A stretch of 64,000 bases of DNA, from positions 1,389,192-1,453,191 of the forward strand of contig BEDY01000006.1 of assembly GCA_002335605.1 (NCBI GenBank), in the 5' to 3' direction. Every line of letters begins with the position of its first letter. Position 1 is the first letter of the stretch. Below are positions 11,423 through 63,545 of this stretch, piece by piece. Origin of the DNA: Prillingera fragicola. Lineage: Eukaryota > Basidiomycota > Tremellomycetes > Trichosporonales > Trichosporonaceae. A model generated the notes under the pieces. That model had not been told where the DNA came from. It did not search any database and saw only the letters and a list, made by a program, of their open reading frames with translations. A program made the translations under genes and the position numbers.

Positions 11423-14031
11423 TTACTGCACTAGATAATCTTCCCAGTTGAACGGCAGCGTAGTAGCCAGCGAGGTCCAGTATGCCTCGTCAAAGGCCGA
11501 GAAACCAGGTGTGGCATTCAACAGCTCGTTGTCCAAAAAGCTCGACTGGCCGTCAGCCTACAAACCCGCACAGCACTCACCAAGTCGCTCAAAACGTTTT
11601 CATCCACAGGGTTGAGTACTGGAAGATCCAAGTCTGCCGTTATAATAGACTTGGTTGTCAAGTCGGCCGTTGGATCGTCCAGCCGCATCTCCGGGGGACT
11701 GGGGGATGGCTGCCGACTCATTGCCACTGATGCAGTGTTGAGGCTCCTGAGGAGCTTTTCGTAAAACCTGGCAATGAACGCGGTGGGGACGTCGGTCTCC
11801 TCGTCACTGGCTGTACGGCAGATATCGTAGACCTCGGAGAGGAGGGAGATTGCCAGCCGGCGCTGAGGATTGGAGAACCGCCAATACAGCTGGGGCCGTC
11901 AGATTGGGTGCGTCTTGCCCACTCACGCTTTGCATGGAAGAGCCAAAGACGGCCAGGCGCACTGACAGCGCATCCTGGATGAAGCGCAACGTATGACTGA
12001 TAATTCGCAGCTCCCCGAGAAACATGACAGCCAGCTCGAGGCATTCGTCAAGAATAGGACCAATCTCATGCTGTTGAACATAGTTCAACATGTAGACGCG
12101 AATGGCGAGGGTAGCGCTGAAAATGACCATTCGCAGCGCAGCGTCCTTTTCCGCGCCGACTCCGTTTTGCCCTCGTGGCTGGGAGAACCACTTGTTCGTG
12201 ACTGCTAGAGCTTGGTTGTAGCGCTGTTCCAGCTTCATGAGAGTGAGGCTACGATCGATCGAGTGACCGGGATCGGGGAGACACCCAGTGTCGGTGTATG
12301 GGAGATGACTGACATTAGCATGGTTGTCACAGACAGGCTACGCACTCGAGTGAACATGCCAGCCCCAGGTCTCGTGTTCCGCATGCAAGCTCAGCATGAC
12401 TTCGCGCCCAGTTCTCGCACTCGCACAAGTCAGCGCAGTTCAACACCAGCAACCTTACATCGGCCACTTCGTAAGAGCGAATAGTAGCTGGCAACCCAAA
12501 TAGGGGAGCGTACGTCTTGTCAAAGGCTGTTGTCAGCGGCTTCCACCTCTTGCCACCAACCAGTCAGGCAAAACCACGTCCTCTCACGGTTCTGACTTGT
12601 CAGCCAGGAGCTACCAAACACCACGTCATGCCACACACCAGTCGCTCCCTGTCGACTGAAGGAGCCATATCCTTGCTCTGGGTATGCAGACCCAGCTGAT
12701 ACCCTTGCCGAATAGCGATACCAATCTTCATCCATGCCGATTGGTCGGTTGGCTGCTTGTCTGTTCCGCTTCAGCGCCATATCACCACCAATGAGCGACT
12801 CACAGTAGACCAAAATCAAGGCAGCCTGGAGAATTCCAATATGGCATGCACCAACCTCTAGCGAAGCACTGAGGAGCCGCTGAGCTCGTCCAAGGAACAT
12901 GGGGTATGAGTCTTTTCGGAAGAACTTTGCCGACGCTGCAAGGACTGCGGAGAAGAGCACCGTGCTCGAGCCGCGCACGTATTCGTATGTGTGCACTGTA
13001 CGAGTCAGTACCATGTTGCATGAGAGAACTCACAGTCGGGGTCGAATAAATTGAGCTGCGTGGTGAGGTTCTTGTGAAATCTGGCGTGAGCTCCACTCTT
13101 CACAGGGTGACTCACAAGTAGACAAGCCGACGGGCTTCCTCGTTGGTAATACACCCAGCACTGACAGGGTCGTCGCTGGCGCCATCCTGCGACTCCAGCC
13201 CGTGGCTCTGCGGCGAAGTGTTCCAAGTGTCTGGAAGGCTGAGGTCGTCGTCTCCTGGGTCGAGGTGACGGCAGACGTCCGTCTGCGCGACAGCGCGGAA
13301 CGCAGAAGTCGATATAGGTGCGTTCGACATTCCAGAGGATAGGAACGGGCCTGACGGTGAGGCTAGCCTTGCACGCTTCGGTGGTCTGTTCCACGCGCTC
13401 AGGATTGCGTCGGATGCCAGCTGTGTCTGTGCCGGTTGTTGGCTTATTGTGGCTGTAGGTGCTTCGAGGGAGGTTCTCAATGATGCCACATAGCGAGCGG
13501 CCAGACTTGGAATCGATGCGACTGATGGTACTGCCGTCGAGGCGTAGCTCGCTGGCGTGGGGAGCTGCGGGGGCGATGATGACCCCGTGAGAGGTGGTGC
13601 GACGACGACATCGGCTGTGGCTGGCTGTGGGACAGCGGAAGAGGCTCTGGACACAAGGTTAGACGCAAAGGCGTGGGCAGATAGACCTCCTCACTGTGCG
13701 AGAGCTTTCAAGTTTCGTCGTTTCCTAGAGTATGCGCAGGGCAGGTTCATGCGAGCTGGTTGTCAGTCTGGTGCTTGGCACGAAGGGGTCGACTGACCGC
13801 AGCGCTGGCAAGAGTTTCTGTAGTCTGCATTATTGACACACACGACCTAGAACAGTGAGCAGTGATCTAGACCATGACCAACTGGCCACGAACCTTGACT
13901 CCTCGACAGAGAATGCATCTGCCAACGTCAGCGGCCTAGTATCAAACGGCCCCACATCTGTTCCAAGCCCCATGACACCCTCGCCCAAGAGTAGGAGCGA
14001 TCAGTACTCACGCCCTGGTAGGTTCGACCAT
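11423..14031 (-). CDS. Zn2Cys6 transcription factor (TF1), fungal-specific TF domain
   Basis: About 14 exons on the minus strand; first exons are 14031-14012, 13918-13894, 13846-13798, 13755-13695, 13646-13116. They encode a protein of about 680 residues beginning MVEPTRACILCRGVK. The zinc cluster is Cys-x2-Cys-x6-Cys-x9-Cys-x2-Cys-x6-Cys and ends RMNLPCAYSRKRR. A disordered Pro/Ser-rich linker follows, then the alpha-helical fungal_trans-type middle region (TVLFSAVLAAS, RLLSASLEVG, RTWFCLTAFDKTY), and a C-terminus ending PFNWEDYLVQ. It is a clear paralogue of TF2 (24277-26864), with several identical exon lengths (25, 49, 192, 68, 74 nt). It shares a 294-bp divergent promoter with a Gfo/Idh dehydrogenase, its likely target. 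Nuclear; the inducer is unknown. Confidence 0.88.
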
Positions 14032-14159: not shown

Positions 14160-14180
14160 TCGGATAAACCCTCGGATAAG
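14160..14180 (+). promoter_or_regulatory. Tandem TCGGATAA elements in the TF1 / Gfo-Idh-1 promoter
   Basis: Two direct copies of TCGGATAA (14160-14167 and 14172-14179), 12 bp apart, roughly midway between the TF1 start (14031, minus) and the Gfo/Idh-1 start (14326, plus). The same octamer appears in the TF2 promoter and twice in the sugar transporter/Gfo-Idh-2 promoter. The CGG half resembles a Zn2Cys6 half-site; GATAA alone could also bind GATA factors. Confidence 0.55.
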
Positions 14181-14325
14181 TCATACCCCCATCCATTCAG
14201 AACGATGCATGGGGGCATCCTACATGTGGGGGGAGCCATCTGTGGGCAGTGAGCAGCTTGCCCACGTCGTTTAAAGCAGGCCTTTTCATGACTTGCATCT
14301 CTCAACATCTCGTCCCAACTCCAAC

Positions 14326-15718
14326 ATGACAGCCTCACACTCTAGCTCTGACGCGCCCTACGTGGTCAAGTGGGGGTACGTTGACCATCTCCATCTCGAG
14401 CTGACGTCAGAATCATCGGCGCAGGATGGATCTCGGACATGTTCTGTAAAGATGTCAGCTTTGATCGCGAGGAGGTAACCGACGTCAGCCACGCCATCGT
14501 CGCCGTCGGATCGCGGGACAAGAGCAAGGCAGCCGAGTTTATCGCCAAGACGATTCCCAAGGGCTCGCGTGCCCAGGTGCAGGGACATTATGACAAGCTG
14601 CCAGAGGCGTGTGGATCTTACGAGGAGGTGTACGCCCATCCTGTGAGTCACCGGTGTAGCCTTGGGGCGCTTCCGGGAATGACAGCTGACACCCACAGGA
14701 TGTGCAGATTGTGTACATCGGCACCCCTCACCCGCAGCACTTCGCCGAGACCAAGGCTGCTCTCGAAGCCGGCAAGCACGTTCTGGTCGAGAAGCCCGCC
14801 TGCCTCAACGCGGCCGAGTGGGCTGTGCTCAGTGTTCTTGCAAAGGAGAAGAACCTGTTCCTGATGGAGGGACTCTGGACGCGCTTCCAGCCGCTCATTG
14901 TCAAGCTGCAAAAGGCTCTGCACGAGGACAAGGTCATTGGCGACATTCGCTATGTGAGGTCCGACTTCTCCATGGCGTTCTACGACTGTGAGTGTCCTTG
15001 GGTTGCGCTTTGCCTGACATGCAGTCAACCCGGATACCCACCGCACCATTGCGCTTGAATCAGCCGGGGGAGCCCTGTACGACCTGGGCGGCTACGCTCT
15101 GCTCCCAGCAATGCTCGCGCTGTACGAGGCGCCGGCCAACGAGCTCTCCCCGCCCGAGAACCTGCACGCGTCCATGGTCATGACGCGCACGGGCACGGAT
15201 CTGAGCACGAGTGTGACGATGGACTTCCCCAAGATCCTGGGTAAAGCCGTGTGCACGACCAGCTTTGCGTACAACTCGCCCAAGGACGAGCCCGGGGTGA
15301 TTGTCGGCACCAGGGGGGAGATTGTGCTGCACGGGGCCGTGTCGCGGCCGACCAGCCTGACTATCAAGACCATCAAGGGTGATCCCGCCCCCGCGCCGTT
15401 TATCAAGGAGTGGAACGAGCCTATCGAGGTCGACGCAGAGTTGGGCCCGGGGTTTGGGCTGTACTTTGAGGCCGACGCTGTCGGAAGGTCTCTTCGCGGT
15501 GAGTGTGGTGTGATAAGGGAGGAGTGGTGCTGATAACGTTTAGACGGGGACATTGAGAACGCTGCCCAGCCGCATAGTCGGACTGCCATGGGTCTGGAGG
15601 TGAGTTCGAGTCTTGCGACCGCGGCGCTAACAGGAAGATGTTTGACAAGATTCGCAAGCTTGGTGGTTATGAGCTTCCTCCTGGCCTGGAGCAGGTCACG
15701 AGCTCTTCAAAGCTTTGA
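14326..15718 (+). CDS. Gfo/Idh/MocA-family dehydrogenase 1 (dihydrodiol / xylose dehydrogenase-like)
   Basis: Six exons (14326-14375, 14411-14642, 14699-14987, 15025-15498, 15544-15599, 15638-15718) give 393 residues. The N-terminal Rossmann motif IIGAGW (first glycine made across intron 1) is followed by VAVGSR, IGTPHPQHF and the family hallmark VEKPACLN, whose Lys acts in catalysis. EGLWTRFQP and the ESAGGALYDLGGYAL segment match the trans-1,2-dihydrobenzene-1,2-diol / NADP-xylose dehydrogenase subgroup. The substrate is most likely a sugar or cyclic polyol. The gene is divergent from TF1 and has TCGGATAA sites about 150-165 bp upstream of its start. The final acceptor (GAAG) was chosen because the alternative CAG six... 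nt upstream leads to an immediate stop. Confidence 0.9.
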
Positions 15719-15841
15719 TCTAGCATAGTAGCTCCAAAGCACGATGCAAGGCCGCTCGGCAACAATCACATGGGTTGGTGTGCATCATTGTACCACTCAA
15801 CAGCTTACAAACGACTAACTCGCACGTCTCATTGACTCCTC

Positions 15842-17728
15842 CTAGATCATGTACCTGAAGTGACGGTTCTCAATGTCGGTCAAGTCGTTCTCACCAGCGA
15901 CACGACTCTGGTGCTCGCGCTCCTCGGGCGTGAGACCCTCTGCGAGGGCCGCGGCGTCGCGCTTCTTGTTCTGGCGGTAGTAGTGCCACCACCAGAGGGC
16001 CGTGTTGATGCATCCCGCAATCAAGATGATGGCGCACGCAGTGAGACCCTTGAGGTACTTTGGCGCGTCCGAGGGGACAAAGATCTGCGAGCCAATAATG
16101 TTACCGACGCAGTAGACGAGGAGCGAGGAGGCGCCAAAGAACGACTTTTTGGTGCGGCCTGCGACGTTGATGGAGATCATTGGCCACGCGGTGACAAACG
16201 ACGCGATAGAGTAGACGAGCGAGAGCATCCAGACCCCCCACTTGGCCCACTTGGACACTTCGGCGAGACCTGCAAACAGCAAGACGACGCAGCATACGGC
16301 CTGGACGAAGATACCGATGGGGAAGCGCATGCGGGGGAAGTAGCGGACCGTGACGGACGCGACAATCACGCAGCAGCAGGTGACGGCGTACATGGGCAGC
16401 GAGTAGATGATGGACTCGAGGGGTGTGAAGCCGAATCCGCGGTAGATGAGCGTCTGGAAGGTCGTGAGAGCGCCGTTGGGAATGTTGCCGAGCAGGTTGA
16501 ACATGAGCGCATAGTAGTACTGGGGGTCGCGGAAACACTCTTTGACCTGGTCCCAGCGCCACTTTTGCACACCACCGTCACCGGTAGAGTTCTCGGACAC
16601 GCGGGCCTTGGCCATGCGCTTCTCGCGCTTGGAGAGCCACCAGACCTCGTCCGGGGTGCCGCCAAAGATGAAGAAGATGATGCCCATGCCGACAGTGACG
16701 CCGCCGAGGAACAGGTTGATGACCCGCCATGCAGCGAGGCCGCCACGCTGCTGCGCGTTGAGCGCAATGTAGTAGATGCCCACGCCAAAGACCATGGCAA
16801 AGAACGAGTCTGGCCGTCAGCTAGCACGCCGCGCCACACGCAGCGCCACTCACTCATCGAGCAGTAGAGACCCTGGCGCAGCGTCTGCTCCTTGCGTAGC
16901 CACCACGACGCCGTAAAGATGGCAAAGCCTGTCACACTCGTCAGCAGCGGCCCGCTCTTCGTCGAGCTCGCCTGCACTCACCGGGGGTGACGACCGACTC
17001 GAACCAACCGAGCAAAACACGCACGGCGGCCAGCTGGGCATAGTTGTTGCACGCTCCGAGGAACATGACCATGGCGCCCCACAGGATGGTGCATACTGCC
17101 AAGGCGCGTCCGAGGGGGAAGCGCTGCAGGACCCACGCCATGGGGTACTGGGCGACAGCGTACGACATGTCTGGTGGAGCGTGTCAGCGGTTGGTCGGAA
17201 AATGCGCGGAACGGTAAAGTGGGGCTGGCAAAAGGGACTGAAATGAAAGCAAGCACGTACAGAAGAAGGAGGTAAGGTTGCCAAACTCGTTCTTAGCCAT
17301 GTTGAGGTTGGTGTCCTCCTTGAGACCAAAGACGACACCGGACGAGAGCGACGTCTTGTCAGAGTACTGCAGGCCATAGACTGGAGCTGTCAGTGCTGAT
17401 AAAGTGGCCGAGAAAACAAAACGTACTGATCATGAGCATGGGCATGAGGATGCTATCAGGTCAGCACCACTCCACCCGCAGACACTCACAAGTCGACTTT
17501 GAGCATGAGACGCTTGTACTCCTGGGGACTGCCCGTCAGCACTGAGGCTTTACAAAAAGACACTCACGTAAACTCGTCGTGGGCGCGCACGAGATCCTCG
17601 GCGGCGTCAATGGGCTTTTCGTCGCTGCTGAGCCGCCCACCCTCGTCGTAGGTGCCGCCATGCTCTGCAAAGGCGTCGGGCCGCTTCTTGTCCGATACGA
17701 GCTCGGGGACTGTCCCGTGGTTGGCCAT
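15842..17728 (-). CDS. MFS permease, anion:cation symporter (allantoate/nicotinate permease Dal5/Tna1-like) family
   Basis: Multi-exon minus-strand gene starting MANHGTVPEL and ending RHFRYMI. The last exon alone encodes about 310 residues. The first transmembrane segment is followed by DKTSLSSGVVFGLKEDTNL, a segment typical of the ACS family, then AQYPMAWVLQRFPLGR between helices 2 and 3, GWFESVVTPGF with helix 5, and a central loop around TPDEVWWLSKREK. Twelve hydrophobic helices are visible after joining exons. ACS carriers import carboxylates, vitamins or purine breakdown products in symport with protons at the plasma membrane; the substrate here is not determined. It is convergent with Gfo/Idh-1 (123 bp apart), so a linked function is possible. 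Confidence 0.88.
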
Positions 17729-19444
17729 TGTTGATAGAATTGTGATGCAGGAAGACACACAGGCGGGGTACTCCTGCCCTTGTTCTTAAACTCTCTGCTG
17801 CAGTAGTGTGCCGCTTTCTGCCGCGATCACGCCCACCCCCGTGATGTGCACGAGCGGCCAATGGATCTCTCGCCTCTCTCTCACATGATACGGGACCTGT
17901 CGTATAAAGTAGATAGGTGGGCTCGCGACGGCCCGAAAGACTAAAGTTGGAAAACAACGCCAGGGGGGATGTGGTGCCTGCGCTGCTGTCATGGTTGGAG
18001 CATCTTCGAATCGCGATAGGCGACACCCGAATAGTCCCTGAGGGGATAGGGGCACGCCGAGGAGAACCGAACCGTTCCGCTCTGCGCCAGAGGCGCGGCG
18101 GCGGAGGTGGCCTTGGAGCGGGGTTGCCAAGATGTTGCCGAGGGTGGGTGGTGCGGGCCAGTCGGTGCTGGTCGCTGGCCCTGACCGAGTTAGGCCCCAC
18201 TGCCTCTGTTTTGTTGACGATAGGTGTATAGGTGAAATGGTAGTGCCGGCCGGTGAGCACGGCAGAGATGATTGGGTTGTATGCGATGCTTACAGGTGAT
18301 AGGAGGACTGGGCAGCTGGTGTTGATCCTTGCTTCACCTTGCACCTTGCAGTGTATGTAAGCCTGCACCAGCTTTGATGTGCACCCCGACATGCTACCAC
18401 GGTCGACGGCCATCGCAAAGGAAAGCGAGTATGCAGCTGTTGCCGTGACTCGTCTCGAGATAGCGCCACACAGCCGCGGGTTTTCTAACAAATCAGTATC
18501 ACATTCCTTACAAGATCACAATCTCAACAAATCCAAGATCGAAGGGACGTGTGCGCTGCGGTCATAGGCTCCTCCTGCTCTGCACCCGCTGTTGCAAGGC
18601 TGCTTCCAGTCGCTAGGGTGGCTTCATTCGGGCTCTGCCTGGGACCTGTGCCGATTACTGTCCATCATGCCAGCCTCGAGTGGATTGGCACACTGTGGTT
18701 GCCGGATGTACCAGCATGATTGCCGGTGCATGACGCGTTTGCCGTACTACAAGCCCGTGGGGATGACGGCAGCGAGCGGTCGATGCAGCCAACACCTTTC
18801 GCTTCGAGGCGAGACTCGCACAACCCAGCAGTGACATGAGCCACTGCGCCGTTGGGGCCATTACGGCCCCACCCCGCCCATTTTCCGCGTTCGTCACCTT
18901 GGAGCTCTGTCACTTTGGAGCATTTGCCCTCTTGCATCGCTGCCTGACCTTCTGGCGACGAGTCTTGCTCTGTCTTCATTGGGTCGGGCTGTTGCATTCG
19001 TTCAGCAGCAGAGCCACGGCGATCACCACTTAGGAACTGCAACGAGATGATTCCCATCGAGCAGAGGCACCATCCACCCCATAGGCACAATCTCGCCAAG
19101 CCATTCCAGCTGGTATCAACCACCGACAGATGACCGAGGCAGGAGCGACGCATGGCTGTGGCCAGTGGTTTAGCATAGAGGGCAGACCTGTGCCATGCTA
19201 TAGATGTGCATATGCACATACCCTCTGAACAAGGATGGGACAGGATGCCAAGAGCTCGGCTTTTCGTACCCGGGTTGTGGTAACTGCGGTGGAGGTCGAT
19301 CACTCTCTCATTACTGCTCACATGACATCCACATCGCTTCATTGTTCGTGGCTTGTCCCATCATAAAGTCATCTCTTATTGTCTTAACACCCCATCCCCC
19401 AGCACATCCATCCACCACCTCCTCACCCTCCTAGCAGCGTCAAC
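17729..19444. other. 1.7-kb intergenic region
   Basis: Lies between two genes transcribed away from each other (ACS permease and mpaB-type oxygenase). Open frames such as 17607-18491 and 18665-19342 (minus) have no recognisable domain or splice-supported extension. No RNA gene or transposon remnant was recognised. It is the longest gene-poor stretch in the window. Confidence 0.45.
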
Positions 19445-20926
19445 ATGCTGCACCCCAATCTCGCCTACGCGGCACTCGCAGCGGGCATGGCAGCCCTAGC
19501 CATCCGCATGGTCCGTGTCAGACGCGTCCGCTACAACCGCGTCAAGGAGATGAATGCAACGTATGCCCACCTTCTCAACGACCTCGACGGCATGACGTAC
19601 CAGGAGGCTGAGAAGATTATGAAGGTTTCACAGAGCTTTGTGCGTCGCGTTTCGCAGTGTAGCCAAGCGCTGACGAACTAGGACATGCCGTGGCTCATTG
19701 CGCTGTCGCTCAGTTTCGCCCTCTTCAAGACCTATGCCATCCCCACCATCTCGTCCGTGCTGTGCAAGTCCAACGAGCTCGGCAAGAAGGAGAACGCGGG
19801 GCGGCGCGCAGAGGACACGGCTGTCGTCATCGGTGCGTGTCGGACAAGGCTGTTACTGACGACCAGGCGAGTTTCTATACGGCGGTGGCCTGGACAGCGA
19901 GCGCGGCACGACTGCCTTGGCGAGGATGAACTTTCTGCACTCGCGCTATGGCAAGCTCATCACGCGCGAGGACAAGCTGTTTACCCTCTGCTTGTTCATC
20001 TTTGAGCCGGCCAGCTTTGCGGACGCGTACGAATGGCGCGGCCTCGAGGATATCGAGAAGCAGGCGAGGTAAGTGGCTAGGACGCGAGGCGGCGTGTGTG
20101 ACGAATCGGCCGCCGTGTGGCTTCTGCTTCGAGTAACCGAAGTGAGCGGTGGGAGGTGGGAGGCTACCGCATTCCTCGGAACGCCTCTTTGGCGCACTTG
20201 TACTCAAGTCGAGGTCGATCACATGATGGTTCTGTTGACGGCTTTCGGTTCCTCACCACCCACCTAGGCACACCCACCTACCCCACTACCTTCGTACTGA
20301 CAAGCAGGTACGTCTTCTGGCGCGAGATTGGCGCGCGCATGGGCATCGACAACATTCCACCCACCCGCCAAGGCCTGTGGGACTGGAAAGAGTCCTACGC
20401 CAGCAAACACTTTGTGTACGCGCCGACAAACAAGCAAGTGGGCGACGCGACGTTTGACGTCTTTCTCCGCCCGTTCCCCGAGTTTATGAAACCGTTTGGC
20501 CTCACTGCCTCCCTCGTCTTTCTGGACGACCAGACGCGCGAGGCATTCGGCTACCCCCGCCCCCCTGCGTATCTCTACACCCTCGTCCCAGCCCTGGTCC
20601 GCTTCAAGGGCCTCGTGGTGAAATATCTCCACTACCCGCGCGAGACGCTGCCGACGTTTTTGGACAGCTTTGAATACACCGACTCGGCGGGGCAGAAACG
20701 CGTCAAGCGCAAGGGGTTCCTCTTTGAGCCGTGGTATGTCGACGACTCGGCGTCGGCGTTGGGTCTGTTTGCGTTCCTAAAGCCGGGGAAACAGTGGCAC
20801 GACGAGGGGTTTGCGGGTCACGAGCTCGGGCCCGAGAGGCTCAAGGCCGTCGGCACGGAGACTGTGCTCAAGGAGGGAGAGAGGTTGAGGGAGGGGGCCA
20901 TGGCTTGCCCGTTCTTCCACTCGTAG
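19445..20926 (+). CDS. ER-bound oxygenase, mpaB / rubber-oxygenase catalytic domain family (DUF2236)
   Basis: Four exons (19445-19639, 19682-19832, 19867-20068, 20308-20926) give 388 residues. An N-terminal transmembrane anchor (YAALAAGMAALAI) with flanking basic residues is followed by the family core: LGSRY-like FLHSRYGKLI, LFTLCLFIFEPASF, FWREIGARMGIDNIPPT and the WKESYASKHF helix. Family members include mpaB, which cleaves a farnesyl side chain in mycophenolic acid synthesis, and latex-clearing protein Lcp, both haem-dependent. The present protein may cleave or oxidise an unsaturated lipid at the ER; that is inference. Intron 3 is unusually long for this locus (239 nt). Confidence 0.82.
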
Positions 20927-21206
20927 GTTGGCTTGGGGTCTGGCTGTGTCTCATGGGAAGAGCTGGGGAGTGGGTATGTATGTCATTATCACGGCTCATC
21001 GCTTCCCCCCACGGACGCCGCAGGCTGAACCCGCAATTCACTGCTTGTTACTGATCGTTAGGTGTCGTTACATGCCAATGTCCAAATCTATGAACAACAA
21101 CCCAAAGTCCAAACTATCTCTGAGCGTCCTCGATATTGACCTCCTCCTTTACTGTCTCCACAGCCCCACCCTCACCATCCAGTTCACCATCAGCAGGTGC
21201 AGCAGT

Positions 21207-23141
21207 CTAAATACCCCCCTCAACATGCCCTCCAACCGCCGCCGCCACCACACCAGACCCGCCCGCCGCCTCCCGCTCACTCACATACTCCCCGCCCCAA
21301 CTCTCATCATACCTCGGGGGCACAGTATCCGCGCGCCCAGCATCAAGCTCCTGCATCCCCATCTCCAACCCGGCATTCCTCCTCGCAGCGCCCGCAGCCT
21401 TTTCCCTCGCCACAGCCGCCTGCGCAGCGTACGCCCCCACCACATCCCCCCGCCCAGTCCCGAGCCCCGCCAAACCGGCCGTGGTGGCGGAAGCCACGCT
21501 GGGGACGTAGGCCGCCGCGACGCTGCCGTCGGGGTTGACGAGGCTAAAGTTGCGGAGCGCCCTGAGGGCCGGCTCGGGGGTGGGCGCGTGCAGCGAGGTG
21601 GTGGAGTCGGAGCGGAACATGGAGCTAAAGTCTAGGCGCGGGGAGGACGTCGAGGTCTCTGAGGCGGCGCTGTCGGTGCCTTCTGTTAGTTCTGTGCAGG
21701 GTAGGACTCACGGAGGGGTCTGGGGCGGATGAGGGCTGGGGGGAGAGGCTGGGACATGTAGGGCGTTGTGGGGAGGTCGTCGACTACGAACTCGTCGTTG
21801 GGCATCGAGCGGCGCTTTAATGTGTCCTTGCTGCGGGTTAGCTTGGACGTGGGTGGACGTACTCCTTGAGCTTGCGGCCGATGAACCAGGCTCCGAGGGC
21901 TACGAGGACTAGGAGGGCCACGCCGCCAATGACACCGCCTGCGATGGCGCCGACGGGTACTTTGTGGCTGGAGCTGGTACCGGGATTGGACGGGGGCTCG
22001 CTGCTAGGAGAGTCAGGTGATGTGGCTGACTCGGTGGTGTTTTGTGCACTGCTTATCAGTGTCAGACAACGGGTTTGCCACTTACAGCAACGAAGAGTAG
22101 AAGGTTGCGGAGTACACGCCAATGGCATCGGTAAGCACCCCTGCCACCCGGAAGCTGAGATTGTACTGCATGGTTGGATCCAGAGGGGCCATGAAATACA
22201 GTACTGGTGCCGAATAGCCCTGGTTGGCGTCCCACTGCTGCTGCGTGAATGCGTTCGGTGGGCTGGGAGTGAGCACAACCTCGTACACTGACGGGGACGG
22301 CTGGGTCGTGCCGTTGATGGTCATGTATGAGGTGTTCTGTGGAATCTGGGCAGTGAAAGAGGAGCGTTGTGAGAGACCGCTGATGATGGACAGTGATATG
22401 GACGCGGTGTCACCTGGTATAAGCTACGAGAGGAGTTGGACGCACCGTCACCGCCAATCTGCTGGCGCACACCCCACTCGCCGCTGAGATTGAAAAAGGT
22501 ATTCGTAGTGCCGTCGGGGTTGACGAGCAACTCTTCGCGCAGAGGCACTTTGTCAAATGAGGTACTATAGGCAGTCAGCGCCCTGTTCATTATTTGCAGC
22601 CCTTGTTGCGACGTTGACACACGACGTACCCCTCAGTCTCCACCCTGGTGGTCACGTTGACACCCTCGAGCACCATCTGCCCCAAGATCAAGCTCAGCAC
22701 GGCCGTATGCTCCCCATAGTCTCCATTGACCTTCCACGCGAGGGTATCTGTGGTCCCATTCTTTGCCGTGGGCGTAAAATCCGCATTCTCACCGTCCACA
22801 GTCAACCTATACGTGCTGCCCGACACAATGGGGCCAAAGAAATAGACGGCCGAGCCTGTGTAGGAATACGTGACGGTCGCACCACCCAGAAGCGTCCTGT
22901 GCGACGCAGACCCGCGGCCCGCGACGCTCCCCCCTGCTTCTCCTGGGGGGTCAGAGTCGGCGAACACGGAGAGCCAGCCGTTGGCTGGGTCGACTGTTGC
23001 GGACGGCGCGGGCGAGTATTGGAGGGGGGCGTCCATGGAGGACAATGTCCAGTTGACTGTCAGCTGGGCCAAGGCTGAAGTGAGCTGTGCGAGAAGCAGG
23101 ACTGCTAGAGTGCTGAGCGCGGCTAAGTGGGGTGGCCGCAT
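21207..23141 (-). CDS. Single-pass membrane protein with extracellular beta domain and PPxY cytosolic tail (1)
   Basis: Six exons (23141-22630, 22564-22414, 22345-22086, 22048-21863, 21830-21712, 21682-21207) give 567 residues. There is a signal peptide (about 25 residues to SALAQ), then an ectodomain rich in NxT/S sites with a motif set found in basidiomycete surface proteins (GSAVYFFG, YRLTVDGE, HTAVLSL). Next come a Ser/Pro stalk, one transmembrane helix (VPVGAIAGGVIGGVALLVLVAL), basic RKLK, and a cytosolic tail of about 230 residues. The tail carries VPPRYDESWGG (PPRY codons at 21309-21320), a PPxY that could bind WW domains such as those of Rsp5/Nedd4 ubiquitin ligases. Same architecture and tail motif as the gene at 36848. 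A cell-surface sensor or adhesion role is inference. The second intron uses a GTGACA donor. Confidence 0.78.
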
Positions 23142-24276
23142 GTTGGACAAGGAACGACAGTGAGGTTGGCTGCAGGGTGACTGAAGTGACTGATTGAGTG
23201 AGAGGGAGATTGAACAGATGAGGAGCGAGAGAGCGTGAGAATGAAAGAGGAGGGAGATGACTGTGAGAATGAGAAGAGAAGAATAAGAATGCAAAGATTG
23301 CTGCATCGTGTCGCTGCACAGACCAGTTCTGTGCGAAGGTGGTGGGGGCAGTGCACAGATGGACGCGACTGATTTTGGCGCAGATTGAAAACACATGCAG
23401 CCATACACCCCACTCACTGGACACCCCAAGCACTTTGACATTGACAGCATAAAGCTCAGTGCTCCAGAGTCGGGCAGGGTCATACCTCAACTCTGTTGGT
23501 CCCCGTAGCAAGTGCACGTCATGGATAACACAGGTGCTCCATTGTTCAAAGTGGCTACGGCTAAATAAAAAGTGCCCCCTAAACTCGATCAACCGTACAA
23601 CATGAATGTCGACTCGACTAGTCGCCTCTCTTGCCGCATGCATCTTTCCATGCCTTGACAAAAAGGAAATGACACTCCTCTGGAGCCAGAGGGAGTGCAT
23701 AGCTGCTCGCACGCTGATTCGAACAGCGGTCTGATCGGCTTTGTACTATCACAACGACCCGGTTTAACCTCTAACCCTATACAAACAATTGATACCTGTA
23801 GAGCCCGAGAACTTGTGAAAACAGCGCTCCCGCTAGTGCCTGCAAAGCCTGAAGCGCTCTGTACTGGTTATATGCCCTGCATAGTCATGTATTGTTGCCA
23901 CAGCGGACCACGTTTACAAAATGCGCCGAGGGGAATGCCTCGGCCAACACTCTCACTTGCCTGTGCCCAGCGCTCAGGCTTGACTTCTTGGTGGGTTGCC
24001 TGGTAGTGTCCAGCTCGGCAACCCATGTAGATACCAGGCCTGGCAATGTCTTTCATCTGACTGCCATACGTTGCCTGAGCCTGAGGGAGCAACAGCGCAT
24101 CGATCGACATTCAGAGTGGTGCCACACTGCTAAACCACCAGCACGTTTTGCCGAGAGTTTATCCGACCAACAGATGACCCAATCTCCATTGCTCGGCATC
24201 ACCTGTTCTCATCTGTACATTCATCCTATCAACACTGGCCACAGCATATCCGAGACTGCAAGCTCAAGGAGAAACC
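23142..24276. other. Intergenic region upstream of TF2
   Basis: Promoters of the PPxY protein (minus) and TF2 (plus). A tRNA T-arm-like hairpin (23712-23728) was examined and rejected. The TCGGATAA element at 24159 is listed separately. No other gene is supported. Confidence 0.5.
24159..24170 (-). promoter_or_regulatory. TCGGATAA element upstream of TF2
   Basis: TTATCCGACCAA, the reverse complement of TTGGTCGGATAA, lies about 110 bp before the TF2 start codon. The same 12-mer is repeated exactly at 28890-28901, in the sugar transporter/Gfo-Idh-2 promoter. This suggests autoregulation, or regulation by TF1. Confidence 0.5.
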
Positions 24277-26864
24277 ATGGCCGAAGAACCAAAGGCGTGA
24301 GTGCCAGTTGGATCATCAGACCTGGGTCATCAGTGACCCTCGACCGGGAACTGCTCTAACAACGCAGCTGCATACTTTGCCGAGGAGTCAAGGTTTGTTG
24401 CGAGTCTCGAGCCAAAGCACTGAATGTATCAGGTCAAGTGCCTGAACAATGGGGTCTATGACAAGCCATGTCCGCGCTGTAGTCAGTATGCCGGCAAACG
24501 TGCAGCACGCGCCGCCCACTGACCAGCAGCTCGGCTCAACCTGCCATGTGCCTACTCAAAGAAGCGGGCCAGCCGTAAAGCATCCCGGACTGGTGGCCCC
24601 GTCCCCATAGCTCCGGCCCCACCACCAGCGGTGGCCTCCACCTCCAAGAAGCCGTCACCGGTCAATGAGACGTGTCCTACCAGCCTCCCACCTGCAGCTG
24701 ACCCGACCCCTCAACGATCCGGCTCCACCAGCGCCGCCAGAGACGTTCCCTGGCCCTCGCTCTCTACCCCACAAACAGCTCCCACCCCATCTCCCCCCAA
24801 TCCCGCCTGGAGCAGGCCGACACGCAAGCGCCTTAGGACTGCATCTCCCGCAGGACCCTTTCTGCCCTCTGCCACTGCTCCTCGCGTAGCGGCGCGGACA
24901 GACGTTTCTCGTCATTTGGATCCAGGGCATGTTGGCACCGACGACTCGGACTACAGCTGGCATATTTCTCCACACGAGCGCGAGTCTGTCGTGGGAACAC
25001 ATGCCAGGGCCAGTGATGATCCCGTCAGTGCTGGGTATGTGACGCAGGAGGAGGCCGGGCGGTTGGTCCAGCAGTGCGTGTCGTGTGGCAATTGCTTGCA
25101 GCGTACTGACCTCAGGTTCCACGAGTTTCTTAATCCACAGATCGCTCTCCTAGATCCCGAGTGTAAGGGTTGACACCATTACTAGAGACTGACCCGCCAG
25201 TGCATACGTTTGAGTACCTCCGCCGGACCAGTACAGTGCTCTTCTCTGCGGTCCTGGCGGCATCCTGCAAGTTCTTCCGCAAAGAGTCCTATCCTCTCTT
25301 TCTTCGGCATGCGCAGCGTGTAGTCGGCTCTGCCTTGGAGTGCGGCGACTGCCACTTGGGTCTCGTGCAAGCGTCTTTAATCTTGGTCTACTGTAAGTCT
25401 TACCAAGACCACGTTTCGCGCGGTCCGTTGACACTGCGGGCAGGGAAGCAGCCAGCAGATCAGTCGGCGTGGATCAAGATTGGTATAGCGATTCGCCTGG
25501 GGTATCAGCTCGGATTGCATCAGGCACAGCCCGAGTCTCTGTATAAACGCGGCCAAAGCGACCGGGAAGCACTTGTAAGCAGCGTCGTCGCAAGTCTTGT
25601 GTACTGACAAGTAGAACGGGGAGCGTACTTGGTTTTGTATGTGTTGTCGCTGGCGCCCGATATTTGCTAACCGCAATTTCTCCTCGTGCAGGTCTCGTTG
25701 GTACGTGATTCTCTGGTTAACGATGGTCTGATCTTTAGCATTTGACAGAACATATGCTGGGCTCTTTGGTCTCCCAGCCACTATACGGACTCACGAATTG
25801 GGTGACGTAAGGAGCAGTGGTGATGACCGCTGACATTGCAGTGTGAGATGTGGGCCCACTCGCACGAGCACCTTGACATTGTGGACATTGATCTCCGACT
25901 TGCGTGCTCTCTAGAGTGAGTAAAAGGACGTGCAATTCTGACGCGACCAAGACATATCAGCCTCACGCAGGTGATTGATTTCCAGTCTGCATCCAGCTCC
26001 TCAGGGCAGCCGCACGACTTCAACCTGCTGTTCATGGAGCTTGAACGGCGATACTATCGAGCCGTTGCCGTGTCCAAAAAGTGGTGTGGTACCGGCGTCG
26101 AGCGTCCTCCTGGGCTGGGAGATCATCAACAGGCATTCCTCCGAATGGTCACGACTAGCGCAAAGCTTGCTATCCGCGTGCAAATGCTGGGCTGTGCTTT
26201 GCCTCGTGATGTGGATAGTCTGCCGAGCGAATGCTTGGATCTAGCTGTGCTTTTTGTGGACCAGCTCCGCGTGATTGAGGGCACGTTGCAATATCTGCAG
26301 GATGTGCTTTCTGTGCGCCTCGCAGGCCTTGGCACAGCCCTTCAAAGCGTGAGTCTCATTCTGGAATGAAGTAAACGCTGACGTGCCCAGCTCTACTGGA
26401 GGTTATCCAATCCACAACGCCGACTGGCAATATCCCTTTTAGCTACGGTCCACGACATCTGCCGCGCCTCGAGCGGCGACGAGACGGACGTGGCGACTGC
26501 CTTTGTTGCGAGATTTTTGGAACGGCTTCTGAGAACGATGAACACGGCCTCCAAGGCTGTCAGCCGAATGCCCACTCCCAGCCCCACTGCTGAGCATGAG
26601 GGTCTCGAGCCGCCCGCAGATACATTTACTGGCGCCGAGATAATGCTCGACTCTCAGCTTCCATGGCTCAATCCTGTGGATGACAATGTCCTCAATGACT
26701 TGGTGAGTGCCTGTTTCACGTTGATGCTGACGTCCAAGTCGACTTTTCTTGACAACGACCTTCTCACCACTGCACCGGCATTTTCTGCGTTTGATAAGCA
26801 ATATTGGACTTCATTGGCTACGACACTGCCATTCAATTGGGAAGAGTATCTTATCCCACAGTAG
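24277..26864 (+). CDS. Zn2Cys6 transcription factor (TF2), fungal-specific TF domain
   Basis: Thirteen exons totalling 2049 nt (682 residues): 24277-24296, 24368-24392, 24433-24481, 24530-25162, 25201-25392, 25444-25574, 25615-25636, 25692-25700, 25739-25806, 25842-25915, 25961-26348, 26391-26702, 26739-26864. It begins MAEEPKACILCRGVK; the six-cysteine zinc cluster ends RLNLPCAYSKKR and is split over four exons. A Pro/Ser linker, the helical fungal_trans-like region and a C-terminus ending PFNWEEYLIPQ follow. It is the paralogue of TF1. Exons 7 and 8 (22 + 9 nt) together equal a single 31-nt TF1 exon, which supports the 9-nt microexon. The likely targets are the neighbouring sugar transporter and Gfo/Idh-2 genes, whose promoter shares a 12-bp element with this one. 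Confidence 0.9.
25692..25700 (+). other. 9-nt microexon of TF2
   Basis: GTCTCGTTG lies between CAG|G at 25691 and |GTACGT at 25701, flanked by introns of 55 and 38 nt. With the split codons at each side it yields the residues C-L-V-A in WFCLVAFDRTY. TF1 has WFCLTAFDKTY from an uninterrupted exon. Confidence 0.8.
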
Positions 26865-26979
26865 CTCCATACATGTTGCATGTCTTCCCGTACATCCCCA
26901 AGCGTCCCCACCGCCTCCCGTGCATAGACTCTGCTTACAATCCAAGTCTCCATCTGTTCGCTGTGCCCACGAGCATGAT

Positions 26980-28631
26980 CTACTTGGCGAGATGGCTCAC
27001 GTTGTGGGCGTTCTCGACCATGACCGTCGTGTCGTGTTCCTTGACGCTGCCCGACTCGGCATCTTGGTTGATCTGAGTCGAAAGCACGCCCTCGCCGTCA
27101 AAGACCTCGGCGTTCTCCTCGAGAGTGCGGCCGCGAGTCTCAGGGTAGAAGAAGTAGATGACGACAATGAGGTAGACGAGCAACACGACGTAGACGAGGT
27201 AGTACTTCCACTGGATGGCAGCGAGGGCCACGGGGTTGACCCAAGTGTTGATGCAGAGAGTGACGTACGTCGTACCCTGCCACAAGGCAAGGCCCTTGGC
27301 GCGAATGGTAAACGGCAGAATCTCAACAGTGTAGGCAATGTTGAGAGGAGACCATGCAAGGTCGTATCCGGCGTAGAAGAGGAAGAGGAAGGCGATAGTG
27401 GCGCCGCCAATCGCGGCTGTGGGGGTGTGAACAAAGGTTGCGCTGAGGGCAGCAACAATGATGAGGGTGACGAGCATGACACCGGTGGATGCGAGCCAGA
27501 GGCATCGGCGACCGAGACGCTCTACGGCCATGGCGGCGGCAATCGCAAAAAACAGGTTGGATATGGCCATTCCACCCGAGATGAGCGACTGCTGCAGGTA
27601 GGAGGTGATGCCGACGGATTTGAGAACGGGGACGAGGTAGTAGCTGACAATGCCGATGCCGTTGAGCTGAGCACCGGCGGCTGTGTTGACGACGATGAAT
27701 GTGCGCCAGCGGTTGCCCTTGGTTGCCCAGAGCGCGCTCCAGCCAGTCGAGTGTTCGCGCTCAGCGGCAAGAGCGGCACGGACTTCCTCCATCTCAAAGT
27801 TGACGAGAGCGTCGTTTTCATCACCGTTTGCGTGGACCTTGGCAAACACCCGGCGAGCCTCTGCCTCACGACCCTTGGCGAGGTACCAGCGAGGCGACTC
27901 GGGAATGAAGACGAGGAAAGCGAGCATGATCGCAGGGAAGGCGGCCTGGAAGAGAACAGGCGTCCTCCACGACCAGTGAGAGTCGGGCATGTTCTGGAGG
28001 GTGCCGTAGGTAATCCACGACGACAGGATAGAGCCGACATAGTAGACGGTAATCTGCATAGACGTGGCCTTGGCGCGGAAACGAGGGCTGCAGTGTCAGC
28101 AATGATTACCACAAATTGCCACAAGGCATGTACGTACTGGCAGAGTTCGGCACAGAGTGAGATGGCTCCGACACCACCAATAGAGGCCCCGATGCCCATG
28201 ACAACACGACCAGCCATGAGCTGCCCAATGGCTTTGGCAGTAGTTTGGATGACTGCGCCAGCCACAATCACAGCCACACCAATGAGCATGGGAATCTTGC
28301 GACCAATCTTGTCGGTGAGCCAGGCAGCAATGAATGGCACAATAAGGCCGGGCAAGAAGAGAAGAGCGCTGGTCACGCCGAGAATGTTCGAGTCCTTGAG
28401 GGAGGGAAACTGTTCGTAAAGCAGAGGCACGGCTTGGAGCGCGTTCATTAGGGAGCCATCGTAGCCCGAGACCACTTGAGTGAGGGCAGTGACGGACACC
28501 CAGAGGACATTGCGTCGAAGGGAAGGATCCTTCCACCAGCTGATTGATGATTAGCGCGCTGTTTTTCTGAGCGGCGACACAACTCACCAAGGGTCGGTAT
28601 TGTTGGGAATACCGTTGTAGACTGAAGGCAT
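26980..28631 (-). CDS. MFS sugar porter (lactose permease / hexose transporter-like)
   Basis: Three exons (28631-28588, 28539-28138, 28087-26980) give 517 residues with twelve hydrophobic segments. Sugar-porter signatures are in the expected order: GYDGSLMNALQ in helix 1, DKIGRK after helix 2, PESPRWYLAKGR after helix 6, AQLNGIGIVSYY in helix 7, VERLGRR after helix 8, EILPFTIRAKG between helices 10 and 11, and PETRGRTLEE at the end. The order and spacing resemble fungal Lac12-type permeases, though plain hexose or other sugars are equally possible. Plasma membrane, proton symport. It shares a 490-bp divergent promoter with Gfo/Idh-2 and two TCGGATAA sites, and lies next to TF2. Confidence 0.92.
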
Positions 28632-28839
28632 GGCTTGTTGGTTGCTATCGTTGAAGCTAGCCAGAAGAATGTGCTTGTGGAGACCTCTGAGGGCACCATG
28701 GGGTAGCTGTTATATGTTATCGAGCCATCGCTCCCGATAGAGTATTGATGACAGTCGTCAACTGTTGCGGCGTCTGTAGATCGGTGGCCGGCGTCCCGGA
28801 AATCATCAGATCAAGTGGAGTGTAGCTTTCAAGTTGTGT

Positions 28840-28901
28840 TCGGATAAATCTCCAGCATGCTCATTGGACATCAGCACCGACGAGGACAATTATCCGACCA
28901 A
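28840..28901. promoter_or_regulatory. Inverted TCGGATAA pair between sugar transporter and Gfo/Idh-2
   Basis: TCGGATAA (28840-28847) and its reverse complement TTATCCGA (28890-28897) face each other across 42 bp in the 490-bp gap between the two divergent start codons (28631 and 29122). The second copy extends to TTATCCGACCAA, identical to the element before TF2. No other gene or RNA is seen in this gap. Confidence 0.55.
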
Positions 28902-29121: not shown

Positions 29122-30418
29122 ATGACCGTCTCAACTGCAACCCTCCCAGCCCAGCCCAGCCATGTTGTCAAGGTGGCAGTGAGTAAACACAAGTGCCAAC
29201 TCTAGGCTTTCTGACACACTGCAGATCATTGGATGTGGCGAAATCGCCATGAACACACACCTCCCGACGCTTGGCCTCTGTTCGCACATCTTCAAGACTG
29301 AGGCCCTCGTCGACATCTCGGAACAGGCGCTCGCCCACTGCAGCGCCAAGTTCAATGTTCCAAAGACATTCACTAGCGTCGACGACATGCTCGCTGCCTG
29401 TCCCGAGATCGAGCTCGTCATGATCATGAACGCCAACGAGTACCACGCCATCCACGCCGTCGCTGCTCTCAACGCCGGCAAGAATGTCTTTATCGAGAAG
29501 CCCATGGCCATCACCTTGGAGAGCGCCGCCGACATTGAGGCCGCACGCGCTGCCAACAACAAGGTCGTGTTCGTAGGCTACATGCGGCGGTACGCCCCGG
29601 CCTTCCTGCGCATGAAGGAGCGTCTCGCAAAAGTCGCCGAGGGGGACATCAGCTTCATTCGCGTCAGGGACATTATCGGACAGGTGAGTGGTCTGCAGAG
29701 GCCGTAGCTGACGACACAGAACGAGTTCTTCGTGGACCAATCTGGCACGTTCCCTATCAAGTTTACCGACTTTCCAGTGGCAGCAGGTGCCGAGCGCGCC
29801 AAGTTGTCTGCTCTCCAGCACGCCCAGGCTCTCGGACCCAAGGCTGAGAACCGCCTGGATCAGCTCACGTGGATGCTGCTGAATGGTCTTGCGTCGCATG
29901 ACCTGAGCGCACTGCGTGAGCTCGTCGGCATGCCGCAGCGGATTCTGAGCGCGACCCGAACCCCAGACGGTCGGTTTGTCACTGTCGTCATGCAGTAGTA
30001 GGTTTACCGAAAACTCTGACGAAAGGTCACTGACGCGTCGCAGCCCTGGATTTGTGGCCTTTTACGAGATGGGCATCGACGGCGTGCGCAAGTTTGACGC
30101 CCATATCGAGGTGCACGCCAAGGACACTCGCTTCAAGGTTTCCTACGACACGTGAGTCTCCGTTGATCCGCAGCAGCTGACAAAATCAGACCATACGTCA
30201 AGGGTCTCCCCATTACCTATTCTGTGCTCCGCTCTGACGAGAACGGCGACCACGTCGAGGAGGTCGTGCGTCCCACGTACGAGGACGCCTTTACCGCCGA
30301 GTACCGCGCGCTCCACGCGGCCATCACCGAGGGCGCCGAGGTCAAGACCAGCGCACTGGACGCGACCGAGGATCTGAAGCTGTTTGGAATGATCATGGAT
30401 GCCATGGTCACTTTGTAG
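29122..30418 (+). CDS. Gfo/Idh/MocA-family dehydrogenase 2 (inositol dehydrogenase-like)
   Basis: Five exons (29122-29178, 29225-29683, 29720-29997, 30044-30151, 30190-30418) give 376 residues. The Rossmann motif is IIGCGEIA, followed by VDISE after strand 2, MNANEYH, and the catalytic IEKPMAIT. FVGYMRRYAP matches the myo-inositol/glucose dehydrogenase side of the family rather than the dihydrodiol side, so it is not simply a copy of Gfo/Idh-1. It probably oxidises a sugar or cyclitol with NAD(P) in the cytosol. It is divergent from the sugar transporter, which may import its substrate. Confidence 0.9.
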
Positions 30419-31771: not shown

Positions 31772-33674
31772 TTAGATGATGCCGCGCTGCACAAACTGCT
31801 CGGGCAGGTCGACGTACTTGGAGCGGAGGTACTCTGCGACCGACTTTGCGAGGTTGTCGAGCCTGGCGGTGGATGACACACCCTTGCCGAGGTAGTCATG
31901 GATGACAAAGTGGACGGCCTTCATGCCGGGGAACTCTACGCGCTCGATACGGTTGTTGGTAAACTCGTCCTCGAGCATGGAGATGATCTGCTTCTTGGAC
32001 AGCAGCGAGCGGAGCCACGTGTACTCGTCGGCGGAACGGGCAAAGAAGCCGACGTTGGCGTTGCCGCCCTTGTCGCCGGAACGCGCGTGCACGACGTGGC
32101 CGATGGGGCCGCGCTTGGTGGGTCCCCACTGCGCGGCGTCAAAGGCCGGGGCATCGTAGTCGCTCTGCTTAACGACAGGGGCCGCCTCGTCGCCCACAGC
32201 GCTGATCGTGCGCGACTCGCCACCGACCATGGTGACCTTGAGCGGGAGGTGCTTCTGGCGCACGGTCGCGGGCCAGTACTCGATGTAAGGGGTGGGGACG
32301 GCGGCGCGGCGCTCAAAGTGCCAGCAGCAGCCGGGGAAGTGGCCGAGGCCGTCGGGGTTGGTGAGGATGGCGAGGTTCTGGTGGGGGCCAAACGCCGCCT
32401 TGTCTGGTGACTGGGCAAAGATGCGCATCATGGCGGTCGCCTGGGCCTCGGACTTGGGGTTCTCGGCGGGCACACCGTACTGGGTCATGTCAAAGGTGGT
32501 GAAGCGCGCGAGGTCCTTGCCGAGCGCAATCTTGGTCTGCATGCGGTAGGTGTCAAACTTTTCGGTAACGTCCAGGCCAGTGGCAAAGATCATGGTCTCG
32601 GCCTGCCAGCCGGCAATGGCGCAGATGGCGAGCTTGGTAGTCTCAGGGGGAGCGACACCAGTGACACCGGTGACGCGGACGCGGTCGTGGCCAATCTCGG
32701 TGACGACAATGTCGTCGATAAGCGCCTGGACGTCGGGGTTGAGGTAAACGTTGCCCTGGATCTCGTACAGGATCTGCGAGCGGACAGTCACGTCGTTGAC
32801 GACACCGTTGAAGCCGTTCGAGTTGGGCTCTGGATTTGTCAGCAGGGGCTACAAGACGTCTCTGGACTTACGCTTGGTGACGACAAAGGTACCGTCGCGC
32901 GAAATCTCGGCAATACCCATGGCAAAGTTGTAGAAAGTGTCCTTGTACGCCTTGAAGCCACTCGAGTTGCCGCCGGTAACGTACGCTCCGCACTCGATGC
33001 AGTGGCCGGCAAGGAGGGCACCAGCAAGAGCGTCAAAGTTGTTCCAGTCCCAGTTGTGGTACCATGCGGCAGCGCCAATGACGGGCGAGGCGTCGGTGCA
33101 ACGACCCGAGATGACAATGTCGGCGCCAGCCTCGAGGGCGGCACGGATACCGCGCGCGCCGACGTAGGCGTTGGCGGCCATGGGCTTGAGGTTCCAGCCG
33201 GACAGGGGGCGGTCGCCGCCCTCGAGGTGGTTGAACGTCTCTCCCTTCTCGGCCAGCTCCTCGAGGCGGCCCAGCACGCTGTCGCCCTCGACGTATGCGA
33301 CCTTGAGGTCGAGGCCCATCTCGGCCAGCTTCTTTGATGCAATCTCGGCAAGACCCTTGGGGTTCATTGCGCCGGCGTCGGTGACGACTTTTTGCTTGCG
33401 CTCGGCAATCGAGGACGCGGCAACAAGCAGGTGCTCGAGGAAAAACTTGTCGTAGCCGGCATTAGGGTCCTTGTTGAGCTCGAGAGTGTGCCAGGCGAGG
33501 TTGAGCTCGGCGAGGTAGTCGCCAAAGAGTACTGAGCAGCCCGAAGTCTGGGACTGGCGGAGGAGGGCGTCACTGTCGTGGTTAGCTGGAACAACAGAAA
33601 AAAGCTGAGACTTACGACCTGTCGGCGGACATGCCACTGAAGGCTGCGATGCGGAAAACGTCGTCTTGAGTCAT
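31772..33674 (-). CDS. AtuA-like protein (DUF1446, acyclic terpene utilisation family), long form
   Basis: Three exons (33674-33616, 33572-32872, 32829-31772) give 605 residues. The N-terminal DUF1446 domain shows IAAFSGMSADRSDALL, DYLAE, VVTDAGAMNP, YVEGDSVL, VGARGIRAALEAGADIVISGR and CTDASP. The C-terminal AtuA domain shows the conserved HARSGDKGGNANVG. In Pseudomonas, atuA belongs to the citronellol/geranyl-CoA catabolic cluster, but its biochemical role is not settled; fungal members are poorly characterised. No targeting signal is obvious. It is divergent from the helical-repeat protein gene at 34249. Confidence 0.9.
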
Positions 33675-48105: not shown

Positions 48106-51877
<3,772 letters not shown>

Positions 51878-63045: not shown

Positions 63046-63545
63046 CTACAGGGCAGAATCGTCGATCACTGGCGGGTCCACCCAGTCTGTGGGGAGAGGC
63101 TTGACCTCATCGATGGTCTGCGCGGGGATTGCGGCAATCGTGTCCGTGTGGTCGAGCACCAGGTACAGCGACGTGTCTTCGGCAGCGGAAGGGACGCTAC
63201 CATCATCGACTACCGACGGGTCGACCCAGCCCGTGGGGAGTGATTTGATCTCGTCACTTGTCGGCTCCGGGATCGTTGCAATGGTGTTCGTGTGATCGAG
63301 CACAAGATACAGAGACGTGCCTTCGGCCGCGGTAGGGAGAGAGTCATCGATCACGGGCGGGTCGACCCACTCTGTGGGGAGAGGCTTGATCTCGTCAGTT
63401 GTCGGGGCCGGGAGGGTCGCAATTGTGATTGTGCCGTCCACGACAAGGTACAGAGAAGAGTCTGCGGCCGAGGTAGGGGGAGGATCAACAATCCCTGGCG
63501 GGTCGGCCCAGTCTGTCGGGAGAGGCTTGATCTCATCCGTTGTCG
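63046..63545 (-). repeat. Coding tandem repeat, ~141-144-nt unit, 3.5 copies
   Basis: Copies begin with (T/S/I)DE(I/V)K(P/S)LPT and diverge mainly in the Pro/Ser-rich middle. The last copy is truncated by the stop codon after WVDPPVIDDSAL. Confidence 0.8.

Follow-up and report, generated by a model that had tools for sequence, protein, structure and literature searches.

A CGGATAA element confined, within 64 kb, to three promoters suggests a possible small local regulon of two paralogous Zn2Cys6 regulators in Prillingera fragicola

The final 64 kb of contig C6 of the basidiomycete Prillingera fragicola (BEDY01000006.1, positions 1,389,192 to 1,453,191; hereafter the window, numbered from its first letter) hold five copies of the octamer TCGGATAA, and all five fall in three promoters: the divergent promoter shared by a Zn2Cys6 regulator gene (TF1) and a Gfo/Idh/MocA oxidoreductase gene (GFO1), the promoter of a paralogous regulator gene (TF2), and the divergent promoter shared by a sugar porter gene (ST) and a second Gfo/Idh/MocA oxidoreductase gene (GFO2). 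Based on the paralogy of the two regulators, on the families of the neighbouring genes and on the longer element common to the regulator promoters, we propose, with a probability that we put at about 0.53, that these copies mark a local regulon: TF1 and/or TF2 would bind a CGGATAA site, regulate their own genes and drive GFO1, GFO2 and ST. A regulon of this kind is an ordinary, known type of gene control. What makes the locus of interest is that it combines one defined element with two candidate factors and with three promoters for five genes, and, if it is true that both TF1 and TF2 bind, it would provide a paralogue pair still sharing its site, which would be useful for studying how regulators diverge. 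Literature searches on the octamer, on basidiomycete Zn2Cys6 proteins with CGGATAA and on Trichosporon motifs gave no prior report among the matches listed (those for the octamer being judged by title), and those on Gfo/Idh dehydrogenases and on paralogous sugar regulators brought up nothing relevant to the locus.

Results

The element and its flanks

The five copies of TCGGATAA start at 14160 and 14172 (both on the forward strand), 24159 (reverse), 28840 (forward) and 28890 (reverse), and the heptamer CGGATAA occurs in the same five places of the window and none besides. These are exactly the places given in the original prediction, which was made from the letters of the window, and no further copy of the octamer is found there. 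The three promoters, which that prediction had put at under 2% of the window, total 1,211 bp (1.9%), and all five copies sit before functionally coherent genes. The predicted distance of 110-225 bp from start codons holds for the nearest start (110-224 bp); where two genes share a promoter, the farther start lies at most 274 bp from a copy.

In the divergent TF1/GFO1 promoter, two octamers 12 bp apart make up a tandem element on the forward strand (TCGGATAAACCCTCGGATAA, 14160..14179), which forms a CGG-N9-CGG direct repeat. The element before TF2 (TTGGTCGGATAAACTCTCGG, 24151..24170, reverse strand) has the same CGG-N9-CGG arrangement and agrees with the 14160 copy in 15 of 16 bases, additionally sharing a 12-mer with the 28890 copy. 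In the divergent ST/GFO2 promoter, an element on the forward strand (TCGGATAAATCTCCAG, 28840..28855), which matches the pattern CGGATAAAYYYYCRG, is faced by one on the reverse strand (TTGGTCGGATAA, 28890..28901). Written out with its flank, the 14160 copy reads TCGGATAAACCCTCGG, the 24159 copy (reverse) TCGGATAAACTCTCGG and the 28840 copy CGGATAAATCTCCAG.

These flanks are rare in the whole genome (20.25 Mb in 17 contigs). The 16-mer TCGGATAAACYCTCGG has two exact places in it, namely the TF1/GFO1 and TF2 promoters, and when up to two mismatches are allowed the number rises to 11, compared with 7 for the reversed control. No local match between the 295-bp upstream regions of TF1 and TF2 scores higher than this block (1 of 200 dinucleotide shuffles gave an equal or better one), which points the same way with respect to both genes and lies 128 bp (TF1) and 110 bp (TF2) from the ATG. 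The 12-mer common to 24159 and 28890 (TTATCCGACCAA / TTGGTCGGATAA), an identity that had also been predicted, is found at these two places and nowhere else in the genome. The pattern CGGATAAAYYYYCRG has exactly three sites in the genome, one in each of the three promoters of the window, and the reversed control has none; it was composed from those three sites, and its informative part is the empty remainder of the genome. Each promoter thus holds one copy of a longer element, of which the two regulator promoters have the best form, one in which a second CGG follows nine bases after the first. Judged from sequence, the flanks are stronger evidence than the octamer count.

The regulators

TF1 (11423..14031, reverse strand, start 14031) carries a zinc cluster of the form CILCRGVKVVC...CQRC...C, and TF2 (24277..26864, forward strand, start 24277; 678 aa) combines a Zn2Cys6 cluster with a Fungal_trans domain. 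The Zn_clus family scores 25.2 bits in TF2 and 26.4 bits in the N-terminus of TF1 (52 aa scanned), both above the Pfam cut-off of 21, and Fungal_trans scores 31.8 bits in TF2 (cut-off 23). Both clusters have the spacing CX2CX6CX9CX2CX6C, which satisfies the Zn2Cys6 pattern CX2CX6CX5-9CX2CX6-8C given in the excerpted text of PMC5082525. As had been predicted, the two regulators are paralogues: 31 of their first 49 residues (63%) are identical, and over the remainder of TF1 the main tblastn segments, a part of them crossing introns, align with TF2 at 33-63% identity (TF1 is confidently spliced over the zinc cluster only, its later exon borders being partly settled). When TF2 was used as the query of a genome search, TF1 came out as its closest relative, with 42-64% identity by exon, compared with up to 49% for the other places that matched, a closeness established from this one direction of search.

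Among solved zinc clusters the nearest are those of Leu3, Lac9 and Gal4, with weak scores, and the equivalent of the Gal4 lysine that contacts CGG is kept in both TF1 and TF2. A protein search with TF2, which reaches relatives sharing exact words (7,993 candidates were scored), returned three relatives, in Rhodotorula, Rhodosporidiobolus and Tulasnella, all of them basidiomycetes and none of them AraR or XlnR. Together with the short introns and the presence of Zn2Cys6 factors, these relatives fit the basidiomycete origin of the DNA.

The enzyme and transporter genes

GFO1 (14326..15718, forward strand, start 14326, with an approximate exon model) has dimeric dihydrodiol dehydrogenase as its closest solved relative (2o48, E 1.8e-30). 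For GFO2 (29122..30418, forward strand, start 29122) the closest solved relatives, in the Rossmann domain, are DgpA1, glucose-fructose oxidoreductase, a galactose dehydrogenase and inositol dehydrogenases. Between TF2 and GFO2 lies ST (26980..28631, reverse strand, start 28631), a 517-aa MFS sugar porter of the Sugar_tr family, which is closest to plant STP10. Family scans and structural relatives thus agree with the earlier assignment of these genes to two dehydrogenases of one superfamily and a sugar porter.

On another contig (C4:1243960-1247642), a gene resembling GFO1 (exon identities of 43-63%) adjoins one resembling GFO2 (46-54%), and this repeated adjacency suggests that the two dehydrogenases form a functional pair, probably in a joint pathway.

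Copies outside the window

Several octamers elsewhere in the genome also precede oxidoreductase genes. Those at C2:2568463 and 2568477 are some 300 bp upstream of a Zn-alcohol dehydrogenase gene, the one at C2:2575326 (CGGATAAATTATCGG) is some 150 bp upstream of a gene for an aldo-keto reductase, and the one at C1:2134013 some 210 bp upstream of an aldehyde dehydrogenase gene (its identity read by eye). These three kinds of genes on C2 and C1 could be distant targets, as far as their upstream sequence indicates. Three octamers within 7 kb would be expected about 0.14 times (by arithmetic from the 133 copies in the genome), and we regard the C2 locus as suggestive of a second target locus, on which we do not rely.

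The region C2:2567011-2586778, in which these three octamers stand amid the Zn-alcohol dehydrogenase, aldo-keto reductase and Gfo/Idh (ox_reductase_C) genes, also holds, by eye, transhydrogenase and acyl-CoA-synthetase-like genes, together with a TF2 paralogue whose partial model gave no Pfam match.

Discussion

A possible mechanism

In the mechanism that we infer, from the binding itself to the sign of regulation, the dimerisation and the substrate, the five TCGGATAA copies would be binding sites of TF1 and/or TF2, with one zinc cluster reading the CGG triplet within TCGGATAA(A). Twelve bases on, and in the same direction, the TF1/GFO1 and TF2 promoters have another CGG, and a dimer or two monomers could occupy the direct repeat thus formed, CGGATAAACYCTCGG; at ST/GFO2 the sites would be two facing copies, separated by a 42-bp gap, one of them having a weaker CAG as its second triplet. 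Through this binding, TF1 and TF2 would regulate themselves and each other, and the sugar porter and the two Gfo/Idh/MocA dehydrogenases would be switched on, ultimately giving a small local circuit that would take up and oxidise a sugar, a cyclitol or a glycoside.

By analogy, such a locus would work like several known systems, which are described here from excerpts of the cited papers. Zn2Cys6 proteins typically read a CGG triplet, and fission yeast Pho7 has the asymmetric site TCG(G/C)(A/T)xxTTxAA, two of which form a direct repeat at pho1, one of them with a single CGG triplet (PMC5559640). Pho7 resembles the present case in being a Zn2Cys6 factor with an asymmetric site and a direct repeat, and differs in the tail of that site (xxTTxAA, compared with ATAA here) and in serving the phosphate regulon. 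In Ustilago maydis, the gene of the regulator Rss1 and its target srg1 have a divergent promoter in common, autoregulation has been called conceivable, and the promoters contain inverted and direct CGG repeats; the motif that Rss1 binds was not determined there (PMC5082525). The arrangement at TF1/GFO1 is alike, a basidiomycete Zn2Cys6 gene sharing with its putative target a divergent promoter that holds CGG repeats, whereas Rss1 responds to salicylate. Finally, in Aspergillus the Zn2Cys6 regulators of sugar catabolism AraR and XlnR have the sites CGGDTAAW and CGGNTAAW, respectively (PMC6486530, citing Ishikawa 2018). Four of the five copies fit these consensus sequences, and one further match to CGGDTAAW lies in the window outside this set, at 9048 (reverse strand). 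The differences from AraR and XlnR are that our organism is a basidiomycete, that the three relatives reached with TF2 include neither of the two, that the candidate targets encode Gfo/Idh dehydrogenases and a porter instead of a pentose reductase pathway, and that some of the sites bear a second CGG.

Frequency of the octamer and the role of chance

Against the proposed regulon weigh the way in which the octamer was chosen, its behaviour in the rest of the genome and the state of several paralogous loci and of the zinc clusters themselves. The octamer was noticed, and not predicted: it was picked after reading, because it was clustered. The alternative that follows is that a word which happens to cluster, picked from tens of thousands, is functionless, and we consider this explanation unlikely, if still the strongest of the rivals. 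In its favour, TCGGATAA ranks 42nd of the 6,019 octamers with four or more copies in the window, when these are ordered by excess over a second-order Markov model, and it is one of 9 wholly intergenic octamers among the 3,559 with at least five window copies (using rough gene models). Genome-wide it has 133 copies (209 for the reversed control word), or 0.42 expected per 64 kb, and when 133 sites were placed uniformly, 362 of 4000 simulations had five of them inside one 64-kb stretch. This genome-wide count is one of the checks that the original prediction had proposed; as regards 500-bp promoters, which it had also named, among 20 copies on contig C1 (20 of the 22 there), placed with a crude gene finder, 11 are intergenic, 7 exonic and 2 intronic, and 3 are both intergenic and at most 500 bp upstream of a predicted start. 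Because 9 of these 20 copies lie inside predicted genes and only 3 are near starts, the bare octamer is neither confined to promoters nor a general promoter signal.

Chance accounts less well for the arrangement in the window. None of 100 dinucleotide shuffles of the window reached five copies (mean 0.64), and in none of 4000 uniform placements of the 133 sites did five fall within 14.7 kb. Among the nine wholly intergenic octamers, TCGGATAA is the only one to occupy three intergenic regions within 15 kb, the other eight being mostly local repeats or spanning more than 15 kb. In 15 of 3,000 triples of segments with the lengths of the three promoters, drawn at random (as opposed to triples of promoters), some octamer was exclusive to the triple and present in all three, and in none did it also have five copies. 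Taken by itself, the octamer count in the window is unusual and not decisive; what speaks most directly against chance is that the 16-mer of both regulator promoters and the 12-mer linking TF2 with ST/GFO2 are found nowhere else in the genome.

The remaining difficulties concern the element beyond the window and the regulators. In the 6 kb examined at the GFO1-like/GFO2-like pair on C4 there is no CGGATAA, the element thus not being kept at paralogous targets, and among eight loci of more distant TF paralogues, taken with 1.5-kb flanks, six are without CGGATAA. The small-regulon reading of the original prediction is weakened at these points and partly supported by the paralogy, the gene families and the element common to the regulator promoters. 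The other two TF loci (on C3 and C9) do hold CGGATAA, with the distance to the start codon not settled, and none of the eight was established as a carrier of the common element. Additionally, when the regions upstream of TF1 and TF2 were aligned globally with MAFFT, the two blocks were not brought into register. The residue just before the third cysteine, a lysine in most zinc clusters, is K in TF2 and V in TF1, and because of this difference the specificities of the two regulators may not be shared.

Longer signatures did not generalise either. Pairs of CGGATAA were searched genome-wide as direct repeats (gap 0-30), facing (gap 30-60) or back to back (gap 0-30), and five places were found in these arrangements, two of them in this window, which counts in favour of the regulon. 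Direct pairs numbered 3, against 4 for the reversed control, and facing pairs were found at 2 places, against 1, which we count as no enrichment, while back-to-back pairs numbered 0, against 3; paired sites, being few and not above the control, were rejected as a genome-wide signature. The same holds for the CGG-N9-CGG rule CGGATAANNNNTCGG (7 places, 6 for the control) and for GGTCGGATAAW (5 and 5).

Other possible readers and origins

The element could also be real and read by another protein, such as a GATA factor or a genome-wide, AraR/XlnR-like pentose regulator. The element contains GATAA (and GGATAA), most of its copies fit the AraR consensus as described above, and the copies before alcohol dehydrogenase, aldo-keto reductase and aldehyde dehydrogenase genes on other contigs would suit a reader with a wider reach; the three basidiomycete relatives of TF2 that the exact-word search reached include neither AraR nor XlnR, and we hold this reading to be improbable. 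A GATA factor in particular was rejected as the leading explanation: the consensus of these factors is HGATAR, a G precedes GATA in all five sites, which is a misfit, and the TF1/GFO1 promoter is without HGATAR.

Still less probable, to the point of being a marginal account, is that the match between the TF1 and TF2 promoters is a neutral remnant of gene duplication and the other copies are due to chance, which the paralogy of the genes and the common orientation and similar distance of the block would allow, but which leaves the ST/GFO2 copies unexplained and sits badly with upstream regions that, the element aside, have no other common word of at least 9 bp and no extended similarity by eye.

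Returning to the local regulon, a more ambitious form of it can be drawn, in which the TF pair would share the asymmetric CGGATAAAYYYYCRG, would cross-regulate each other together with a Gfo/Idh route that oxidises a sugar, a cyclitol or a glycoside, would use a half-site convergent with that of Aspergillus AraR and XlnR, and would extend to the distant genes on C1 and C2 described above (for alcohol dehydrogenase, aldo-keto reductase and aldehyde dehydrogenase); taken as a whole, this extended version is a speculative one, and we think it doubtful.

Other features of the window

A local intergenic repeat was seen at 51421-51629, where five copies of GAACGGGAA (minus strand) lie within about 200 bp, ahead of a gene for an OPT transporter. 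Two AtuA-type genes lie at 31772-33674 and 39276-41588, at the same contig end as the genes described above, the second of them also having DUF4387. The end of the window (63046-64000) is the end of the contig, and its last bases are, by eye, rich in short imperfect repeats.

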